Source: Flavobacterium circumlabens (lineage in GTDB: Bacteria; Bacteroidota; Bacteroidia; Flavobacteriales; Flavobacteriaceae). From it: a stretch of 64,000 bases of DNA. The notes under the pieces were generated by a model. The model was not told the DNA's origin. It saw only the letters and a list, made by a program, of their open reading frames with translations, and did no database searches. Made by a program: the position numbers and the translations under genes. This document shows, piece by piece, positions 45,581 through 53,752 of this stretch (positions within the stretch are counted from its first letter, which is position 1; each line of letters opens with the position of its first letter). The stretch is from assembly GCF_004345565.1 (NCBI RefSeq), contig NZ_SLWA01000007.1, positions 1-64,000 of the forward strand. The letters run 5' to 3'.

Positions 45581-46999
45581 TTATCTCCAACCTCCGCCCA
45601 ATGCGCGATATAACTCGGTATTGGCAGATAGTTGTTCTCTTTTCAAATTAGCCAGTTCTAACTCACTTTGCAATAAATTGGACTGCGCCGTGATAACTTC
45701 AAGATATTCTGCCATTCCGTTTTTGAATAACAAATTGGCGTTTTTAATGGCTTGCTGTAATGTTTTTACACGCTGCTCAAGGAAAGATTTCTGAAGCTCT
45801 AATTTCTCCACTTTTACCAAAGCATCAGCTACTTCACTAATGGCTACCAGAACAGCTTGTCTAAAGCTTAAAACGGCTTTTTCTCTTTCGGCAACTGCAA
45901 TATTGTATTGTGTTCTTACCTTTTTATTATTCAGTAAAGGTTGTGTCAAACCTCCTGCAACAGTTCCGAATAAGGAAGCAGGAATGTTGAACCAATTACT
46001 GGTTTCGAATGAATTTACGCCGCCCTGAGCAGTAATTTTAAGCGACGGATACAAATCGGCTTTTGTAATTCCGACGTTTGCATTGGCTACTTTTAAGGCC
46101 AGTTCGGCACTTTTTACATCCGGTCTGCGGCTTACTAAAGAAGACGGAATTCCGATTGCATTGTTATTTTTAACTTCAAGAACGCTTAAACGGGTCGTTC
46201 TGGTTTTTGAATTTGGAAAAGATCCTGTTAAAACACTTAAAGCATTTTCCTGAACAGCAATGTTTTGTTCCAATTGCGGAATCAATTGTTCTGCAACCAA
46301 TTTCTGTGCTTCAGATTGTTGAATCGCCAGTGTAGTAACCTGACCCGCATCGTATTTTAATTTAATGATGTTGGTCGTACTGTCGTTTAACTGTAAATTT
46401 TTCTTAGCGATTTCCAATTGTGCATCCAGCATTAAAAGATTGTAATATCCTTTCGAAACATTGGCTACGATAGTAGTCTGCAATGCTTTTTTTACTTCTG
46501 CAGATTGAAGATATCCGGCATAAGCGCCTTTTTTCTGATTACGGATTTTACCCCAAATATCAGCTTCCCAGGATAGTGATGCTCCGGCAGAATAATCGTC
46601 AATGTGTTTTTGACCTAAAGCCTGATTCAGGTTCATGCCCGTAAAACTATTGTCAGACGGATTACTCGTGCTTGCGGTTACATTTAAATTAATCTGAGGA
46701 ATATTTCCCCATTTTGACTGTGTAAATCGGTATTGTGCGATTTCAATGTTTTTCGTAGCGATTTGTAAATCATTATTTCTCGCCACTGCACTATCAATCA
46801 ATTGAATAATGTCACTTTCTGTAAAGAAATTTTTCCACTCCAGATCCCCGATACTTGTCGTATCCTTTGAAACCGATGCACTCCTGAAATTTTCAGGAAA
46901 TGCATCTTTTGGAGTTTCAATATCCTTAGAAACTTTACAGGATATGAATGTGATGATCAGAATAGTGGCCATCACGATTTTGGTTATATACTTTTTCAT
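45581..46999 (-). CDS. Efflux outer-membrane factor (OprM/NodT family lipoprotein)
   Basis: A 472-residue TolC-like channel protein with a lipoprotein signal (IITFISC, Cys 21 from ATG 46999). Paired repeat motifs are seen: IDSAVARNNDLQIATKNIEIAQYRFTQSKWG and the periplasmic helices with LPSSLVSRRPDVKSAELALKVANANVG, ending in YRALGGGW. An in-frame ATG at 47014 overlaps the stop of the 37-codon ORF (TAATG) and would add five residues. It forms a tripartite pump with the RND permease and adaptor encoded upstream in the same operon. Confidence 0.93.
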   Translation of the reverse strand: MKKYITKIVMATILIITFISCKVSKDIETPKDAFPENFRSASVSKDTTSIGDLEWKNFFTESDIIQLIDSAVARNNDLQIATKNIEIAQYRFTQSKWGNIPQINLNVTASTSNPSDNSFTGMNLNQALGQKHIDDYSAGASLSWEADIWGKIRNQKKGAYAGYLQSAEVKKALQTTIVANVSKGYYNLLMLDAQLEIAKKNLQLNDSTTNIIKLKYDAGQVTTLAIQQSEAQKLVAEQLIPQLEQNIAVQENALSVLTGSFPNSKTRTTRLSVLEVKNNNAIGIPSSLVSRRPDVKSAELALKVANANVGITKADLYPSLKITAQGGVNSFETSNWFNIPASLFGTVAGGLTQPLLNNKKVRTQYNIAVAEREKAVLSFRQAVLVAISEVADALVKVEKLELQKSFLEQRVKTLQQAIKNANLLFKNGMAEYLEVITAQSNLLQSELELANLKREQLSANTELYRALGGGWR

Positions 47000-47013
47000 T
47001 TTATAGGTTGTCA

Positions 47014-47127
47014 TTAAATTTCTTTACAAGTATCTTTTCTCGTGTCAAGATCTCTTGAAATTTTATAGGATATGTAAGCGATGCCCGTAATAATGGTCAC
47101 CAGTATTGTCGTTATATAATTTTCCAT
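47014..47127 (-). CDS. 37-residue ORF mirroring the N-terminus of the outer-membrane factor
   Basis: MENYITTILVTIITGIAYIS then YKISRDLDTRKDTCKEI. It lies between the RND permease and the outer-membrane factor. It aligns with the first 36 residues of the latter (MKKYITKIVMATILIITFIS, CKVSKDIETPKD), also at the DNA level, but the lipobox Cys is Tyr and the frame ends after the duplicated segment. Its stop overlaps ATG 47014 (TAATG). It could be a decayed duplication or a small membrane peptide of the pump. Confidence 0.55.
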   Translation of the reverse strand: MENYITTILVTIITGIAYISYKISRDLDTRKDTCKEI

Positions 47128-47129
47128 TT

Positions 47130-50100
47130 TTATTTTTCTTCGTTATGAATTACGGCTACCGGTTTTCCGGTAACTTTTTCTTGTAAATATTGGAATACGA
47201 TGAATAAAACAGGGATGATAAACAAGCCCAGAATTACTCCCGAAATCATTCCTCCGGCGGCACCAATACTAATAGAGTGGTTACCCTGAGCCGATGGACC
47301 TTTGGCACTCATCATCGGAATCAATCCAACAACGAAAGCCAGTGACGTCATGATAATCGGACGTAAACGCAGTTTGGCAGCATCGATGGAAGCTTTGACC
47401 AATGCCTGACCTGATTTTCTTTTTTGTACCGCGAACTCGACGATCAGAATCGCATTTTTGGCGAGCAATCCGATAAGCATTACCAGTGCAACCTGTACAT
47501 AAATGTTATTTTCGATTCCTGTTAAACCAATCGCTACGAATACTCCAAATATACCTGCAGGTATTGAAAAGATTACGGCCAGTGGCAAAATGTAACTTTC
47601 ATATTGTGCAGCAAGTAAGAAATAGATGAATATCAGACACAATAAGAAAATTGTTGCCGATTGCCCTCCGGAAGAAATCTCCTCACGGGTTTGTCCTGAA
47701 AACTCATAACTGTAACCTGCAGGTAATTGCTGTGCTGCAACTTCTTCAATCGCTTTGATAGCATCTCCCGAACTAAATCCCGGTTTTGGAATCGCATTAA
47801 TCGAAATAGAGTTGAATAAGTTGTATCTCGAAGCGGTTTCTGAACCATAAATACGGGTTAGTTTTACTAAAGTATTTATCGGAACCATTTCGCCATTTTT
47901 GTTTTTTACAAACACACGGTCAATAGCGGACGGATCTGCTCTGTCGGCAATATCGGCCTGAACCACGACTCTGTAATATTTACCAAATCGGTTAAAATCG
48001 GAGGCCTGAGCACTACCAAAATAAGCCTGCATCGTCTGCAGTATATCTTTGACTTTTACGCCTAACTGATCGGCTTTCTCATCGTTGATATCCAATTGTA
48101 ATTGTGGATAATCGGCTTTGAAACTCGTAAAGGCTACGGCAATTTCCGGACGTTTCATTAATTCTCCAATGAAGGTTTGTGAGATGCCGCTAAATTTATC
48201 CAGTTTACCACCGGTTTTATCCTGTAATACTAAATCCAATGCCTCAACATTACTAAAACCCGGTACAGTCGGGAAACTGAATACGAAGAAACTTCCTCCT
48301 GAAATCGCGCCTAATTTGCCACGAACCTGATTCATGATTTCGTCGATATTTTTGATATCCCCACGCTCTTCATTTGGTTTAAGCAATACGAAAACAACTG
48401 CTGAAGAAGGACTGGTAGAGTTCGTCAATAAGTTGAAACCGGAGATTGCCGTTACAAATCTTGAAGCATCAAGACCTCTTAACGTATTTTCTGCCTGCGT
48501 CATTACTTTCTGAGTTCCATCCAATGATGTTCCTGAAGGCGTATTTACCGCAATGGCAATAAATCCCTGATCTTCTGTCGGAATAAATCCTGCAGGAGTT
48601 GTTTTAACCATTACAACCGTAGCGAAAGTAATTAAAGCCAAACCACCTAAACTCACCCATTTGTTACGGATTAAGAATTTTAATCCACCCACATAACGGT
48701 TGGTTAAAGCATTGAAACTATTGTTAAATCCGGCAAAGAATTTTTCTTTAAACCCTTGTTTAACGTATGGAGTTTCTCCGTCGTGTGCTGCATGATTATC
48801 TTTTAAGAATAAAGCGGCAAGGGCAGGGCTTAAAGTAAGGGCGTTTACAGCTGAAATTACAATTGCAATTGCCATTGTGAAAGCAAACTGGCGGTAGAAA
48901 ACCCCGGTTGAACCTTCCATAAAACCTACCGGCAGGAATACAGCAGCCATTACCAGCGTAATCGAGATAATAGCACCCGTAATTTCGTGCATTGCTTCAT
49001 GAGTTGCTGCTTTTGGAGACAGATGTTTGTGCTCCATTTTCGCATGCACGGCCTCGACGACGACAATCGCATCATCGACCACAATACCAATCGCTAAGAT
49101 TAAAGCGAAAAGCGTAAGAAGGTTAATCGAGAATCCGAATAACTGCATGAAAAAGAACGTTCCTAAAATTGCTACGGGAACAGCAATCGCCGGGATTAAT
49201 GTCGATCTAAAATCCTGAAGGAAAATAAATACCACAATAAATACCAATATAAAAGCTTCAATCAAAGTATGTTCAACCTGCTCAATAGACTGGTCTAAAG
49301 AAACTTTTGTACTATAGAAAATATTGTGTTTTATTCCCGCAGGGAAATCTTTTGAGGCTTTAACCATCAATTTGTTGATCGCAACCTGAATATCATTGGA
49401 GTTCGAACCCGCTAACTGGATAATACCAATTACAACTCCTTTTTTACCATTAAGACGTGTTAAACTGTTATAAGAATAAGCACCAAGTTCTACTCTCGCC
49501 ACATCTTTCAATCGAAGTACAGAACCATCTGCATTAGAACGAATGGCGATGTTTTGATAATCTTCGGGTTTGGTCAGTTTTCCTTTGTATTTAATAACGT
49601 ATTCAAAAACCTCTTTACTTCTTTCTCCAAATTTACCCGGAGCAGCCTCTAAACTTTTGTCCTGAATAGCGGCCATAACTTCATTTGGCGTAACATTATG
49701 AGTAGACATTTGTGTTGGGTTTAACCACACACGCATGGAGTAATCTTTGGTACCACCAAAAATAGCAGCCGAACCTACACCCGGAATACGTTTGATTTCA
49801 GAGATAATATTGATTTGTGCATAGTTGGCAACAAAAGTCTGGTCGTATTTCGCTTCATCTTCGGTATACATACCGATTGCCATAATAAAACTGTTTTGTT
49901 GTTTGGCTGTGATTACACCTTGCTGTACCACCTCTGAAGGCAGCTGACTTGTAGCCTGTGCCACCCTGTTCTGAACGTTTACAGCAGCCTGATCGGCATC
50001 TGTACCCAATTTAAAGAAAACAGTAATCGCTAAAGTACCGTCATTACTGGCTGTTGAACTCATGTAAGTCATGTTCTCAACACCATTTATAGACTCTTCC

Positions 50101-50294
50101 AGAGAAGGGGCAACAGAACGTAAAACCGTTTCTGCGTTAGCTCCCGGATAAACTGCCGTTACCAAAACCGATGGCGGCGCAATATCAGGAAACTGTTGTA
50201 AAGGTAATTTTGTAAGTCCAAGTACTCCGAGGATCACCAACAAGATGGAGATAACGGTTGCCAGTACGGGTCTTTGTATAAATATTTTGAACAT
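47130..50294 (-). CDS. RND efflux permease (AcrB/HAE1 type)
   Basis: A 1054-residue inner-membrane proton antiporter with 12 membrane helices and two large periplasmic loops. Proton-relay residues are present: Asp pair in GIVVDDAIVVVEAVHAKMEH and Lys in GLLAKNAILIVEFA. N-terminus MFKIFIQRPVLATVISI is typical of HAE1 pumps. It exports drugs or other amphiphiles with the adaptor (50306-51454) and outer-membrane factor. Three bases separate it from the 37-codon ORF. Confidence 0.95.
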   Translation of the reverse strand: MFKIFIQRPVLATVISILLVILGVLGLTKLPLQQFPDIAPPSVLVTAVYPGANAETVLRSVAPSLEESINGVENMTYMSSTASNDGTLAITVFFKLGTDADQAAVNVQNRVAQATSQLPSEVVQQGVITAKQQNSFIMAIGMYTEDEAKYDQTFVANYAQINIISEIKRIPGVGSAAIFGGTKDYSMRVWLNPTQMSTHNVTPNEVMAAIQDKSLEAAPGKFGERSKEVFEYVIKYKGKLTKPEDYQNIAIRSNADGSVLRLKDVARVELGAYSYNSLTRLNGKKGVVIGIIQLAGSNSNDIQVAINKLMVKASKDFPAGIKHNIFYSTKVSLDQSIEQVEHTLIEAFILVFIVVFIFLQDFRSTLIPAIAVPVAILGTFFFMQLFGFSINLLTLFALILAIGIVVDDAIVVVEAVHAKMEHKHLSPKAATHEAMHEITGAIISITLVMAAVFLPVGFMEGSTGVFYRQFAFTMAIAIVISAVNALTLSPALAALFLKDNHAAHDGETPYVKQGFKEKFFAGFNNSFNALTNRYVGGLKFLIRNKWVSLGGLALITFATVVMVKTTPAGFIPTEDQGFIAIAVNTPSGTSLDGTQKVMTQAENTLRGLDASRFVTAISGFNLLTNSTSPSSAVVFVLLKPNEERGDIKNIDEIMNQVRGKLGAISGGSFFVFSFPTVPGFSNVEALDLVLQDKTGGKLDKFSGISQTFIGELMKRPEIAVAFTSFKADYPQLQLDINDEKADQLGVKVKDILQTMQAYFGSAQASDFNRFGKYYRVVVQADIADRADPSAIDRVFVKNKNGEMVPINTLVKLTRIYGSETASRYNLFNSISINAIPKPGFSSGDAIKAIEEVAAQQLPAGYSYEFSGQTREEISSGGQSATIFLLCLIFIYFLLAAQYESYILPLAVIFSIPAGIFGVFVAIGLTGIENNIYVQVALVMLIGLLAKNAILIVEFAVQKRKSGQALVKASIDAAKLRLRPIIMTSLAFVVGLIPMMSAKGPSAQGNHSISIGAAGGMISGVILGLFIIPVLFIVFQYLQEKVTGKPVAVIHNEEK

Positions 50295-50305
50295 TTTCGT
50301 AAAAA

Positions 50306-51454
50306 TTATTTTTTGTTAGTTATTTGTGCAACCTTGGCAGTAGCAGCTTTCTCAGGCTGAATCAACTGACCTTCCTGAAGTTTGTCGATACCGCTTAATA
50401 CAATTTGGTCACCCGATTTTACACCATCCTTAATAAGATAATTGGTACCGCTTTTACCGATTACAGTAATTGGCATTTTGGTTACTTTATTGTCAGTTCC
50501 TACAGTAAAGACAAAAACTTTATCCTGCATTTCAATCGTAGCCGATTGCGGAACCAAAATAGCGTCATCATGCTGAAGACCTAAACGTATTTTACCGGTG
50601 TTACCTGAACGTAAAGTTCCGTTTGCATTTGGGAAAGTGGCTCTTAACGTAATAGCTCCGGTAGTTTTATCAAACTGACCGTCAACCATATCAATTTTTC
50701 CGGTTTGCGGATAGGCATTATTATCGGCTAATATTAAAGAAACCGGAGGTAATTTTTTTATTTTGTCTCCAATGCTGTTTCCGGCATATTGCGATTTAAA
50801 GTTGATGAAATCAGTTTCACTTAAAGAGAAGTAAGCAAAAACTTCATGTACATCGGAAAGTGTTGTTAAAGCTTCAACATCTGTTGCAGAAACGAGGCTT
50901 CCTTGTTTTTTTGGTAATCTTCCGATATAACCACTTACAGGAGCAGTAACATTGGTATAGCCTAAATTGATTCTTGCTGATGCTACCATTGCTTTTGCCT
51001 GCTCAATATTGGCAGCGGCAATTTTCTGGGAAGCTTTAGCCGTTTTCAGCTGATGGTCAGATACTACTTTGTTTTGTACGAGCGGAGTTAATTTGTCTAC
51101 TTCTAACTGAGCGTTGATCAAAGCAGCTTCAGAAGCGTGAAGACTTGCCAGGGCATTGTTTAACTGCTCACGGAAAGGACGTTCGTTTATTTTGAAAAGC
51201 GACTGGCCTTTAGAAACATACGCTCCTTCGTCTACCAGAACGCGATCTAAATTTCCACTTACCTGTGGACGGATCTCAACATCTACAGTTCCTTGTATAG
51301 AAGCAGGATATTCAGCATCAGTCGTCGTGTTAGCACTTGTGATTACCGAAACAGGTAAAAGTGGTGCCGGAGCTGCAGCTGGTGCCTGAGATTTATCAGC
51401 ACAACTTATCAGCACAAGTGCCAGAATAAAGCTGGTTATAATTACATTTTTCAT
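50306..51454 (-). CDS. RND efflux periplasmic adaptor lipoprotein (AcrA type)
   Basis: A 382-residue membrane-fusion protein from ATG 51454 with lipoprotein signal ILALVLISC followed by an Ala/Pro-rich linker. The lipoyl and barrel motifs are GTVDVEIRPQVSGNLDRVLV and GAYVSKGQSLFKI, then a coiled coil, APVSGYIGRLPKKQGSLV, and a beta-barrel to IQPEKA. An upstream in-frame ATG at 51526 would add 24 residues ahead of the signal peptide and is less likely. First structural gene after the regulator, 12 bp before the permease gene. Confidence 0.93.
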   Translation of the reverse strand: MKNVIITSFILALVLISCADKSQAPAAAPAPLLPVSVITSANTTTDAEYPASIQGTVDVEIRPQVSGNLDRVLVDEGAYVSKGQSLFKINERPFREQLNNALASLHASEAALINAQLEVDKLTPLVQNKVVSDHQLKTAKASQKIAAANIEQAKAMVASARINLGYTNVTAPVSGYIGRLPKKQGSLVSATDVEALTTLSDVHEVFAYFSLSETDFINFKSQYAGNSIGDKIKKLPPVSLILADNNAYPQTGKIDMVDGQFDKTTGAITLRATFPNANGTLRSGNTGKIRLGLQHDDAILVPQSATIEMQDKVFVFTVGTDNKVTKMPITVIGKSGTNYLIKDGVKSGDQIVLSGIDKLQEGQLIQPEKAATAKVAQITNKK

Positions 51455-51535
51455 TTTAATATTGGTTTTAATTTGTTGGACATTCTCGTTTTTTAAATAT
51501 TTATTTTGGGTATTATCTGAATTCATCTTATGGTT

Positions 51536-51756
51536 ATTAAATTTTCTAACGTTGTTAAGTAAATAAGTGTAAAAGTCTATATAATCATGGTTGCCAAATC
51601 TATTTCATAATTGGTATTAAATTATTTATCACCGTTAAGTAGCACAGAAAAAAAAGCCTCTATATTACTCTATTAAATTTTCTAACACTGTTAAGTAAAG
51701 TAGTAAAAAAATAGTTGCTAAATTACCTATTAAATCATTTATCACTGTTAAGTAAA
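51536..51756. promoter_or_regulatory. Four-copy operator array upstream of the efflux operon
   Basis: Four near-identical 28-bp sites at 51536-51563, 51616-51643, 51672-51699 and 51729-51756. Each begins ATTAAAT and contains TA(A/T)C-3-GTTA with GTTAAGTA after it. The core is an imperfect palindrome as expected for a TetR-family operator. Spacings are 80, 56 and 57 bp. The minus-strand promoter box TAGATTTG (51595-51602) lies between the first two. Confidence 0.75.
51595..51602 (-). promoter_or_regulatory. Candidate -7 box of the RND operon
   Basis: TAGATTTG on the minus strand fits TAnnTTTG. Transcription would start near 51588, with operator copies on both sides. Confidence 0.6.
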
Positions 51757-51769
51757 AATGAAATTTTTT

Positions 51770-52363
51770 TTATTGTATTGATTTTATAATACCACCAATC
51801 GCATCTTTTAAGATTTGGGCATTTATGGTTGCCATGATATCACTTTTATTAATGATGTTAATGGCAATCAAACCATGAATAACAGAAAAGAAAGTAAAAT
51901 ATTTTTGTTTGATAACCTCTTCCGTTGGATTACTGCTTTTCATAATTTCAGCAATTACAGAAGTAAATAATTTATAAGGTGTTTTAGAAGCATCACATTG
52001 TTCCGAACAACAGTTCATTTGAACCCCAAACATGACCTGATACATTTCGGTATCCGTAAAGGCGAAATCCCAATAGGCCATCCACATAGCTTCTATCTGC
52101 TCTTCCGGTTTTTCAAATTTAGCTTTGGCACTTTCAAGTTCCCTGCCCAATTTCATAAAACCTTTACCGGTTAATTCCCTTAAAATAGCATCCTTGTTAG
52201 AAAAGTATTCATAGATAATAGGAGCCGTATATTCAATCTTATCAGCAATCTTTCTCATACTCAGACCTTGCCATCCTTCTTCTTTGACGATAGCGTAAGC
52301 AGCCTCAAGAATATTAGTTCTTGTCTCTTCTTTTTGTCTTAAAATACGATCTTTACTTGCCAT
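51770..52363 (-). CDS. TetR/AcrR-family repressor of the efflux operon
   Basis: A 197-residue regulator. The N-terminal helix-turn-helix reads ILEAAYAIVKEEGWQGLSMRKIADKIEYTAPIIYEYFSNKDAILREL. The C-terminal ligand domain (about 70-195) contains a Cys-rich stretch (QMNCCSEQCDAS) that could sense metals or electrophiles. It lies just upstream of the adaptor gene in the same orientation. A fifth copy of the putative operator overlaps its own promoter, so it likely represses both itself and the pump. Confidence 0.9.
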   Translation of the reverse strand: MASKDRILRQKEETRTNILEAAYAIVKEEGWQGLSMRKIADKIEYTAPIIYEYFSNKDAILRELTGKGFMKLGRELESAKAKFEKPEEQIEAMWMAYWDFAFTDTEMYQVMFGVQMNCCSEQCDASKTPYKLFTSVIAEIMKSSNPTEEVIKQKYFTFFSVIHGLIAINIINKSDIMATINAQILKDAIGGIIKSIQ

Positions 52364-52374
52364 TTTGATTAAGT

Positions 52375-52406
52375 ATTAAATTGTTTAACACCGTTAGGCA
52401 AATGTA
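52375..52406 (-). promoter_or_regulatory. tetR promoter with fifth operator copy
   Basis: TACATTTG on the minus strand (52399-52406) is a -7 box. The operator copy (52375-52402: ATTAAAT ... TAACACCGTTAGGCAAA) overlaps its downstream edge and the transcription start, which is a repressing position. Confidence 0.65.
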
Positions 52407-52627
52407 GGACGGTTTTTCTGATTATCATATAATTTCATTATAATATTTTCTTATTGTAGTATAGAGTACTGTAAAAAAATGCCGGAAGTCCTTATTTATA
52501 AGGGTTTCTTATTTAAAAATTATTTTTAAGAACCAGTTTTTTCGTATTTGATCGCTTAATAAGTGTGCATTTTTTTATCGCCTGCATAATAATTTATCTT
52601 TTTTAATGATTCAGTAATTATAATTCT
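52407..52627. other. Spacer, no gene seen
   Basis: About 220 bp of AT-rich DNA between tetR and the RelE toxin gene. A weak AATAAGGGTTTCTTATT dyad near 52493 is the only structure noticed. Confidence 0.35.
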
Positions 52628-52927
52628 TTATTTTATTGGATAATTATCGGGATTTTGTGACGTATGAAAAATAGCGTTTAGAAAAACAGTTTTTGAAGGT
52701 TCATCTACCATATAAAAAGCTATGTAAGGAAATTTTTTGAAGGGCAAAAAACTATAATTATTATCGTGAATTTGATAAAAAGGGTTTATTTGTAAAGCTT
52801 TATAAGTTTTTTTGTAATCATTAAGAAAATCTAAAGCTACTTTTTTACTCGCTTTTGCAATATAATATTCAAGAGCTTTTTCAATATTCTTTAATGCAAT
52901 AGGAGAAACGATAATCTTATAACTCAT
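52628..52927 (-). CDS. RelE/ParE-family toxin
   Basis: A 99-residue toxin of the RelE/ParE superfamily: YKIIVSPIALKNIEKALEYY at the N-terminus, the central basic strand, and FPYIAFYMVDEPSKTVFLNAIFHTSQNP at the end, a typical layout. It overlaps the preceding antitoxin gene by 11 bp. Target (ribosome-dependent mRNA cleavage or gyrase) cannot be told from sequence. Confidence 0.85.
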   Translation of the reverse strand: MSYKIIVSPIALKNIEKALEYYIAKASKKVALDFLNDYKKTYKALQINPFYQIHDNNYSFLPFKKFPYIAFYMVDEPSKTVFLNAIFHTSQNPDNYPIK

Positions 52928-53144
52928 ACTTCTTTTTTAGATCTGTATAAAGTGATTCAGCGTCTGTATATAATTTTTCATCGGGGTTAACCTGACTGTC
53001 CAAAATTTCTTGCTGCTTATCAGATAATTTATAAGGTTTTACATTTTCGATCTCAAATTTTATCTTTAGTGATTTCATGAAATCTTTAACAGCTTCTATC
53101 TGAGAAGCATCTTTTGTATATGCCGTGATGTTGATTGCTTGCAT
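52917..53144 (-). CDS. DUF2683-type antitoxin
   Basis: A 75-residue protein: ITAYTKDASQIEAVKDFMKS LKIKFE, then an acidic, helical tail (QEILDSQVNPDEKLYTDAES). This is the DUF2683 family that precedes RelE/ParE toxins in Bacteroidota. The N-terminal half resembles a small ferredoxin-like or ribbon fold rather than a classic HTH. TAACTTTG on the minus strand at 53172-53179 is a good -7 box. Confidence 0.8.
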   Translation of the reverse strand: MQAINITAYTKDASQIEAVKDFMKSLKIKFEIENVKPYKLSDKQQEILDSQVNPDEKLYTDAESLYTDLKKKYEL

Positions 53145-53171
53145 GATTTAAAATTTACTAAAGTTGATAAA

Positions 53172-53179
53172 CAAAGTTA
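53172..53179 (-). promoter_or_regulatory. Candidate -7 box of the DUF2683/RelE operon
   Basis: TAACTTTG on the minus strand, 28 bp upstream of the antitoxin ATG. Confidence 0.5.
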
Positions 53180-53269
53180 ATACAAAAGTCTAACTTTCAT
53201 GTTGATCATCATAATTTATTTTAATCAGACAGCTAACTAAAAAAGGGCTTTTGTTATCCTTAAATTACT

Positions 53270-53752
53270 TTACTTTTTTCGATTGACGTATATGATAATT
53301 GGATTTTTACCATCCAAACCTCTTTTATTGCGACCAAATAAACCAATTTCAGTATCATCCGGGCTTTCTGATTTTAATTCGTTTGGATTTACATAGGTAT
53401 ACATTCCATAGCCATGGCCGGAGATAACCCAACCATCAGTTTTATTTAAATGTGTAACTCCAAAATCTCCAGCTGGCCCACCTGGATAAACAGGCCCAAA
53501 TTCTTTCATTAATTTTATTGCTTCACTTTCCAAATTTGGAATTGTGTCTGCACTGTCAAAGATTATATATGTTCCGTTTTTAAATTAAACCCAATCCTTA
53601 AATTTTGGATTTATGGCAAGTTCAACGTGATTTACTAAAGTTTTTTGAGTCATTGTGTTAGTTTTCTGGATGTTAACTTTCTTTTTCTCTGAGTTACTAC
53701 AACCTAATAAAAATAAGTTTAGAAGGATAAAAAATATTTTAAATCTTTTCAT
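53270..53752 (-). pseudogene. Lipoprotein gene interrupted by in-frame TAA
   Basis: ATG 53752 starts a lipoprotein signal peptide (MKRFKIFFILLNLFLLGCSN). At codon 56 the frame meets TAA (53585-53587) and then continues in the same frame to 53270 with FKNGTYIIFDSADTIPNLES, EAIKLMKEFGPVYPGGPAGD and FGVTHLNKTDGWVISGHGYG. Reading through gives about 159 residues. The word before the stop, KFKDWV*FKNGTYIIF, fits a single base change. The family is unknown to me; similar small secreted proteins occur near toxin or accessory genes in Bacteroidota. Confidence 0.65.

Follow-up and report, generated by a model that had tools for sequence, protein, structure and literature searches.

Tract-linked putative TetR operators between a tetR gene and an RND efflux operon in Flavobacterium, a candidate series of repressor-dependent roadblock terminators

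In Flavobacterium circumlabens, one short site occurs five times around a tetR gene and the efflux operon that follows it, and the locus raises the question of what such a series does between a regulator gene and its neighbours. We analysed a 64,000-nucleotide stretch of one contig (the window), in which all features described here are on the minus strand. The tetR gene (51770 to 52363; 197 amino acids) is followed by genes for an RND periplasmic adaptor (50306 to 51526; TIGR01730, 269.9 bits, cut-off 94.9), an RND pump (47130 to 50294; ACR_tran, 1019 bits; TIGR00915, 1055 bits, cut-off 940), and an outer-membrane factor (45581 to 47014; PF02321 OEP, 166.3 bits, cut-off 22), which lie in line and form a tripartite RND efflux operon. 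The tetR product is a TetR family member, with a TetR_N helix-turn-helix domain above the curated Pfam cut-off (46 bits; cut-off 24). Solved TetR proteins were matched both by sequence and by fold (best Z 19.9, rmsd 3.7, 186 residues), the structure model has a mean pLDDT of 82.7, and an alignment of 16 orthologues shows a basic, conserved N-terminal arm. Scores for the AcrR and MtrR equivalog models were far below their cut-offs (25.7 bits versus 271 and 20.9 versus 280, respectively). A small gene upstream of tetR (52628 to 52927) has a ParE_toxin match in Pfam (27.3 bits, cut-off 23).

A repeat search of the window found the 26- to 31-bp site at positions 51535, 51615, 51671, 51728, and 52374, in register, with copy-to-copy spacings of 80, 56, 57, and 646 bp and a single orientation relative to transcription. 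In the order of transcription, we call these copies U (52374 to 52399; profile E value 2.2e-4), D-3 (51728 to 51753; 1.1e-4), D-2 (51671 to 51696; 1.7e-5), D-1 (51615 to 51640; 4.1e-5), and D-0 (51535 to 51560; 1.4e-4), the last just upstream of the adaptor start; D-0 to D-3 are copies 1 to 4 of the initial annotation. The minus-strand form approximates ACTTAAC-NNN-GTTARAWNATTTAAT, and in each site inverted half-sites flank a free 3-nt center. Allowing up to 3 mismatches, a 26-nt pattern matched exactly these five places in the 5.76-Mb genome, with two matches for the reversed control pattern. In a scan with a 26-position profile of 60 sites, which scored 150 of 8771 first-look candidates, the five copies had E values of 1.7e-5 to 2.2e-4 and the next best place in the genome had 0.061. 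A consensus search of the window with up to 3 mismatches recovered 4 of the 5 copies and nothing in 100 shuffles; a looser 15-nt core did not discriminate across the genome (416 matches versus 705 for the reversed control). With only five copies in the genome, a genome-wide mobile or REP-like repeat is ruled out, and the region from 50000 to 53500 has no Rfam match at gathering scores and thus no known structured RNA. These searches bear out the initial annotation in confining the sites to the tetR-efflux locus and in placing four of them between tetR and the adaptor gene at 80, 56, and 57 bp. It had also put the fifth copy at the tetR promoter box, which holds, with the correction that the box TACATTTG (52399 to 52406) abuts the site instead of overlapping it.

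The adjacent TetR protein very probably uses the five sites as its operators, as the same annotation had proposed, because they are built of inverted half-sites, are confined to this locus, and co-occur with the TetR orthologue (36 orthologue-bearing genomes). At several D sites, a further match to the core lies exactly 18 bp on, clearest in one locus (L188) and in the f5 loci described below. The most fitting reading of AATTTAAT, which the Flavobacterium site has on one side only, is thus a putative third half-site. This overlapping half-site, the single orientation, and the A/T tracts that precede the sites go beyond what the initial annotation saw.

A TetR orthologue with at least 61% identity is present in 36 of 150 genomes of the genus, this one included. 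The site pattern occurs at least three times in 31 of these 36, and direct reading of the other five found diverged arrays; among the 114 genomes without the orthologue, five have one pattern match each and the others none. We added 80 further loci, nearly all titled Flavobacterium, and from 116 oriented loci kept 98 distinct ones after dropping those identical around tetR. A palindromic U site lies at the tetR promoter in 97 of the 98, and a TAnnTTTG box abuts it in 97 of 97; here, U follows the tetR −7 box directly, and as a putative operator it should cover the point where tetR transcription starts. The stretch from tetR to the adaptor gene contains at least three D sites in 97 of the 98 loci, at least four in 84, at least five in 4, and six in 1; conservation of the repeated sites beside orthologous tetR genes, which had been suggested as a check, is thus seen in 97 of 98 loci. 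Site order and spacing are conserved as well, at about 58, 56, and 80 bp in most loci, and the D-1 to D-0 distance is 77 to 84 bp in 94 of the 98 loci, the comparison of this distance having used 94 of the 98. Inner spacings range from 52 to 68 bp, with exceptions up to 153 bp, and strict helical phasing of the sites is not seen. In 86 of 87 loci, an in-frame upstream ATG for the adaptor lies shortly after D-0, mostly 10 nt on (here, 51454 to 51526 of the window), so the lipoprotein-like adaptor signal may have an unusually long N-terminal extension.

The inner D sites are preceded by A/T tracts. In this locus, an A8T3 tract that begins in the tetR stop codon (51761 to 51771) precedes D-3, a T7 tract (51705 to 51711) precedes D-2, and a T8 tract (51648 to 51655) precedes D-1. 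Across the loci, a coding-strand run of at least six T's occurs within 35 nt upstream of D-1 in 88/98, D-2 in 81/97, D-3 in 22/84, D-0 in 10/98, and U in 1/97, and at D-1 and D-2 the run nearly always ends 7 to 10 nt before CTTAAC. A-runs of the same length are found at 2/98 D-1 and 9/97 D-2 sites but at 62/84 D-3 sites, where the tract at this distance is mostly an A-run plus TTT (A3+T3+, 61/84). The remaining spacer contains one T-run and three A-runs of that length in all loci together, and, as a background value for the window, T6+ follows the stop codon by no more than 20 nt in 4 of 40 long reading frames. Under a looser rule (T5+ or A3+T3+ ending 7 to 12 nt from the core), tracts are present at 47/98 D-0, 88/98 D-1, 91/97 D-2, and 79/84 D-3 sites, and mirror-image tracts downstream of the operator number 0 in all four classes. 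Among the first 60 of the 98 loci, hairpin strength before the tracts gave no signal at D-1 (mean z 0.35, n = 52) or D-2 (0.16, n = 47), but did give one at D-3, where only 7 loci were usable (mean z −2.13). We reject intrinsic terminators at D-1 and D-2 for this lack of a hairpin signal directly before the T-run.

The inner sites also lack a promoter signature. Between tetR and the last site, the 98 loci contain 17 TAnnTTTG matches versus a shuffle mean of 22, which is no enrichment, and the counts at D-1, D-2, and D-3 are 0/98, 4/97, and 2/84 versus 6.0, 5.0, and 2.2 in shuffles. The initial annotation had placed the efflux −7 box at TAGATTTG, between copies 1 and 2; the sequence is present there (51595 to 51602), but as a conserved −7 box it fails, since only 8 of 98 loci have one at that position. 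In this window, TAGATTTG more likely supplies the TTG (51595 to 51597) of a candidate −33 element. A better candidate for the efflux promoter is the arrangement TTG-N16-18-[TG]AnnTTTG, found before D-0 in 25 of 98 loci with 0.1 expected; [TG]AnnTTTG ends 10 nt before D-0 in 34 cases. At the place of this conserved element, the window has GACTTTTA (51570 to 51577), a weak candidate −7 element with two mismatches to TAnnTTTG.

The combination of tract and operator recurs beyond the Flavobacterium loci. In family f5 (genera g24 and g60), whose four compared TetR proteins have 40 to 43% identity to the TetR of the window, the U sites adjoin TAnnTTTG, and T6+ occurs in the 22 nt before 69/82 D cores in g24 and 8/15 in g60, counts that include second cores 18 bp on, which have no T6+. 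The fraction of D cores with T6+ is 2/6 in genus g102 and 0/5 in genus g104, and the rule finds no core at one paralogue (L050). In several of two groups of f5 loci (L149 to L164 and L165 to L180), reading by eye found ATG-started frames of about 3 to 14 codons between the D sites, which may be chance or leader peptides.

We also analysed two sets of more distant TetR regions, both of them part of the matches listed. The first comprised 40 regions, of which 38 were used, since one (L226) runs off its contig end and another (L242) repeats L192. In 25 of these 38, AAC-N3-GTT occurs within 200 nt after the tetR stop, mostly as TAAAC or TGAAC operators, and in 24 of the 25, which span 14 families, a tract ends 7 to 12 nt upstream of the core (14 at exactly 10), although this set had been read by eye before the tract rule was fixed and the A3+T3+ part was added after that reading; T5+ alone qualifies 18 of the 25 first D sites. 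Control counts are 4/31 for U sites and 2/42 and 2/19 for unrelated matches, and mirror-image tracts number 0 at the 25 first D sites. A tract lies no more than 30 nt from the stop in 23 of 25 loci with a core versus 2 of 13 without (P = 4e-6). In the second set, to which the rule was applied as fixed and of which all 40 regions were analysed, six loci have a core and four of these a tract, compared with 2/34 U sites; in the two that fail, the core lies 53 and 100 nt beyond the stop. A tract near the stop is present in 4/6 loci with a core versus 6/34 without (P = 0.03), and by eye many loci of this set have a gene directly after tetR and neither operator nor tract. All these loci are related by descent, so their counts are not independent events.

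The distant tract occupies positions −18 to −11 from the core and contains hardly any G or C; the G+C content then is 52 to 64% at −10 to −8. Four to eleven of 28 distant tracts are an A-run plus T3-4 instead of a pure T run, and a strong hairpin abuts the tract in 2 of 28. In two loci (L224 and L236), a G+C-rich hairpin after tetR abuts a T-run, as in a normal intrinsic terminator, with a TetR operator 12 nt on. TAnnTTTG occurs near 12 of 31 distant U cores (1.9 expected) and near 1 of 25 D cores (1.3 expected), and the next reading frame of at least 60 codons starts 13 to 49 nt after the core in 24 of 25 loci. At one locus (L190), T6 and an operator core come right after the stop of a more distant tetR and the gene downstream is, by eye, YceI-like, so the module is not tied to RND pumps; at L191 and L192, tetR has a site but no clear module follows the gene.

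Because the tract is tied to the operator, lies on the tetR side only, is absent at U, and comes without a promoter motif, its likely target is an elongating polymerase. We propose, at what we judge to be an even chance, that the inner sites are repressor-dependent roadblock terminators in series and that U and D-0 serve as promoter operators. TetR bound to U, where tetR transcription should start, would repress its own gene, and TetR on D-0 would cover the start region of the efflux promoter, which appears weak here. D-1 to D-3 would each be a module with no promoter of its own, consisting of an A/T tract with 3′ T's, a spacer of about 10 nt, and the operator. The tetR promoter, which is on their strand, transcribes toward all of them, the geometry in which a roadblock can act. 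Bacterial roadblocks halt polymerase about 14 bp before the site. A halt about 14 to 15 bp before an inner site places the enzyme within the tract, and its RNA-DNA hybrid would then consist almost wholly of A/U pairs. Bound TetR would thus stop a polymerase coming from the leaky, autoregulated tetR promoter at a point where its active center contains a weak A/U hybrid; the polymerase would be released, and the basal tetR transcription that supplies TetR would be kept from the pump genes. A ligand that removes TetR would open all sites together and let the tetR transcript run on into the pump operon. Several findings speak against this model: runs of at least six T's are rare at D-0 (10/98) and in genera g104 (0/5) and g102 (2/6), L050 has no core, the distant set to which the rule was applied as fixed gave a tract at only 4 of 6 cores, and many tracts, including most at D-3 (61/84), are an A-run plus T's, a kind of tract that is also bent DNA.

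The main rival is conventional multi-operator repression, in which TetR dimers would bind cooperatively, wrap the DNA or form loops in it, and so repress the efflux promoter more tightly. The tracts would be bent or stiff DNA that helps this assembly, and a second dimer may bind more weakly 18 bp on from each site. A8T3 and T8 are classical bent tracts. We hold this reading to be unlikely, and it is the main rival because A8T3 is bent and because roadblocked RNA polymerase I at a T-rich stretch released no RNA without a hairpin; the further core matches exactly 18 bp on also fit it, as does the way most loci keep to spacings near 58, 56, and 80 bp. Against it stand the position of the tracts on the tetR side only, with 0 mirror images, and their absence at the promoter operators of the same TetR (1/97; 4/31 in the distant loci). 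The inner spacing of 52 to 68 bp, with values up to 153 bp, keeps no strict helical phase, and the tract is also found in loci with a single site.

It is more doubtful still that each tract-operator module is a promoter-operator in which the T-run serves as a −33 element or a degenerate −7 element and is occluded by TetR. The promoter-like TTG-N16-18-[TG]AnnTTTG at D-0 in 25 of 98 loci agrees with this, as does the G that follows the tract in 15 of 28 distant loci and resembles the end of TTTG. In contrast, TAnnTTTG is not enriched at the inner or distant D sites but is enriched at U, and the base after the tract is mostly A at D-1 (60/88) and D-2 (69/91).

We consider it very improbable that the repeats work at the mRNA level or are bound by a regulator other than the adjacent TetR. 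All copies point one way and would be transcribed, and TetR binding is read from sequence, which leaves room for such a role; the free center between inverted half-sites, the co-occurrence of the sites with the adjacent TetR, the occurrence of this type of core next to TetR genes elsewhere in the phylum, and the lack of an Rfam match all argue against it.

The view of the initial annotation that the operators were recently amplified to grade repression is hardly credible, since the repeated spacing and the repeated site pair of one relative that favor it are set against position-specific conservation over 80 loci and the presence of the array in 97 of 98. The 80 loci are those with exactly four D sites; in them, a site has 0.89 to 0.95 identity to the sites at its own array position in other loci, compared with 0.82 for sites at different positions (0.822 within a locus and 0.821 between loci). 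As same-position identity exceeds that between positions, the array is old, with each position keeping its own character, and the description of copies 2 to 4 as tandem duplicates of a unit of about 56 bp holds for their spacing and not for recent copying. The relative in question is L012 (G066:C43), which has six inter-gene sites, including those at 2214, 2293, 2396, and 2477, and looks recently duplicated because the pair at 2396 and 2477 nearly copies that at 2214 and 2293; nothing elsewhere points to recent amplification or homogenization. A second tetR-RND copy in one genome (L052 in G096), with a tetR frame broken near its start, still has a site at tetR and sites after it.

Returning to the roadblock model, its wider form is that a two-part terminator that a ligand can switch, usually without a hairpin, lies at the end of many TetR genes in the Bacteroidota and is made of an A/T tract of about hybrid length, about 10 bp, and the repressor's own operator. 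Such an element would insulate the downstream genes and open when the repressor is removed, and Flavobacterium would have a conserved series of up to six. We regard this generalization as possible and somewhat short of an even chance. The unexpected part is the tract-operator module, which reaches beyond this locus and can be taken as a variant of repressor roadblocking. The usual view of repressors is that they act on initiation. If the model is true, these Bacteroidota, across many families and although the operator sequence changes, would also use them as switchable terminators, and the strand-specific module with its fixed geometry would be the bacterial counterpart to the T-rich and roadblock layout of RNA polymerase I terminators. 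The module would also mark operators of uncharacterized Bacteroidota TetR proteins and would give a direct test of how the efflux operon stays silent while its repressor is made.

We found no title or opening of an abstract that describes such an array or places a T-tract ahead of a repressor roadblock in bacteria, in a search that left subscription papers mostly outside and is thus weak evidence of absence. As in the local repressors of the AcrR and MtrR type, a TetR family gene lies beside an RND operon with operators at the regulator promoter; the differences here are the co-directional order of tetR, adaptor, pump, and outer-membrane factor genes, the four inter-gene operators, and the tract-operator modules. 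RaeR of Riemerella anatipestifer, in the available part of its report, is a TetR protein beside an RND pump with another gene order (PMC5727081). In the excerpts of two reports on LacI, CodY, CcpA, PurR, and GalR, a DNA-bound repressor downstream of the start halts polymerase (PMC10310618, PMC4132739), and in Escherichia coli Mfd releases the roadblocked enzyme (PMC4132739); Mfd is encoded in this genome as well. Those excerpts mention neither a T-tract at a fixed distance nor a series of sites after the repressor gene (PMC10310618, PMC4132739). A closer likeness is YtgR at trpRBA of Chlamydia trachomatis, which, in the accessible portion of its report, represses an internal promoter and also ends read-through transcripts from an upstream promoter (PMC6504234). 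There, as predicted from sequence here, a repressor is bound after a regulator gene; YtgR differs in having one site and no array and in being an iron-dependent repressor encoded elsewhere, and that portion mentions no T-tract module (PMC6504234). The layout proposed here most resembles that of RNA polymerase I terminators, where, according to the excerpt consulted, the enzyme pauses in a T-rich nontemplate stretch 15 bp upstream of the roadblock site of Reb1, Nsi1, or TTF1 (PMC12366685), compared with a tract about 18 to 11 bp upstream of the core in our loci. In the same excerpt, roadblocked complexes without a hairpin stay intact for 30 min and release needs an RNA hairpin (PMC12366685), whereas a hairpin is strong in only 2 of 28 distant loci here; the polymerase and the protein of those terminators are unrelated to those considered here, and the terminators are not under ligand control.
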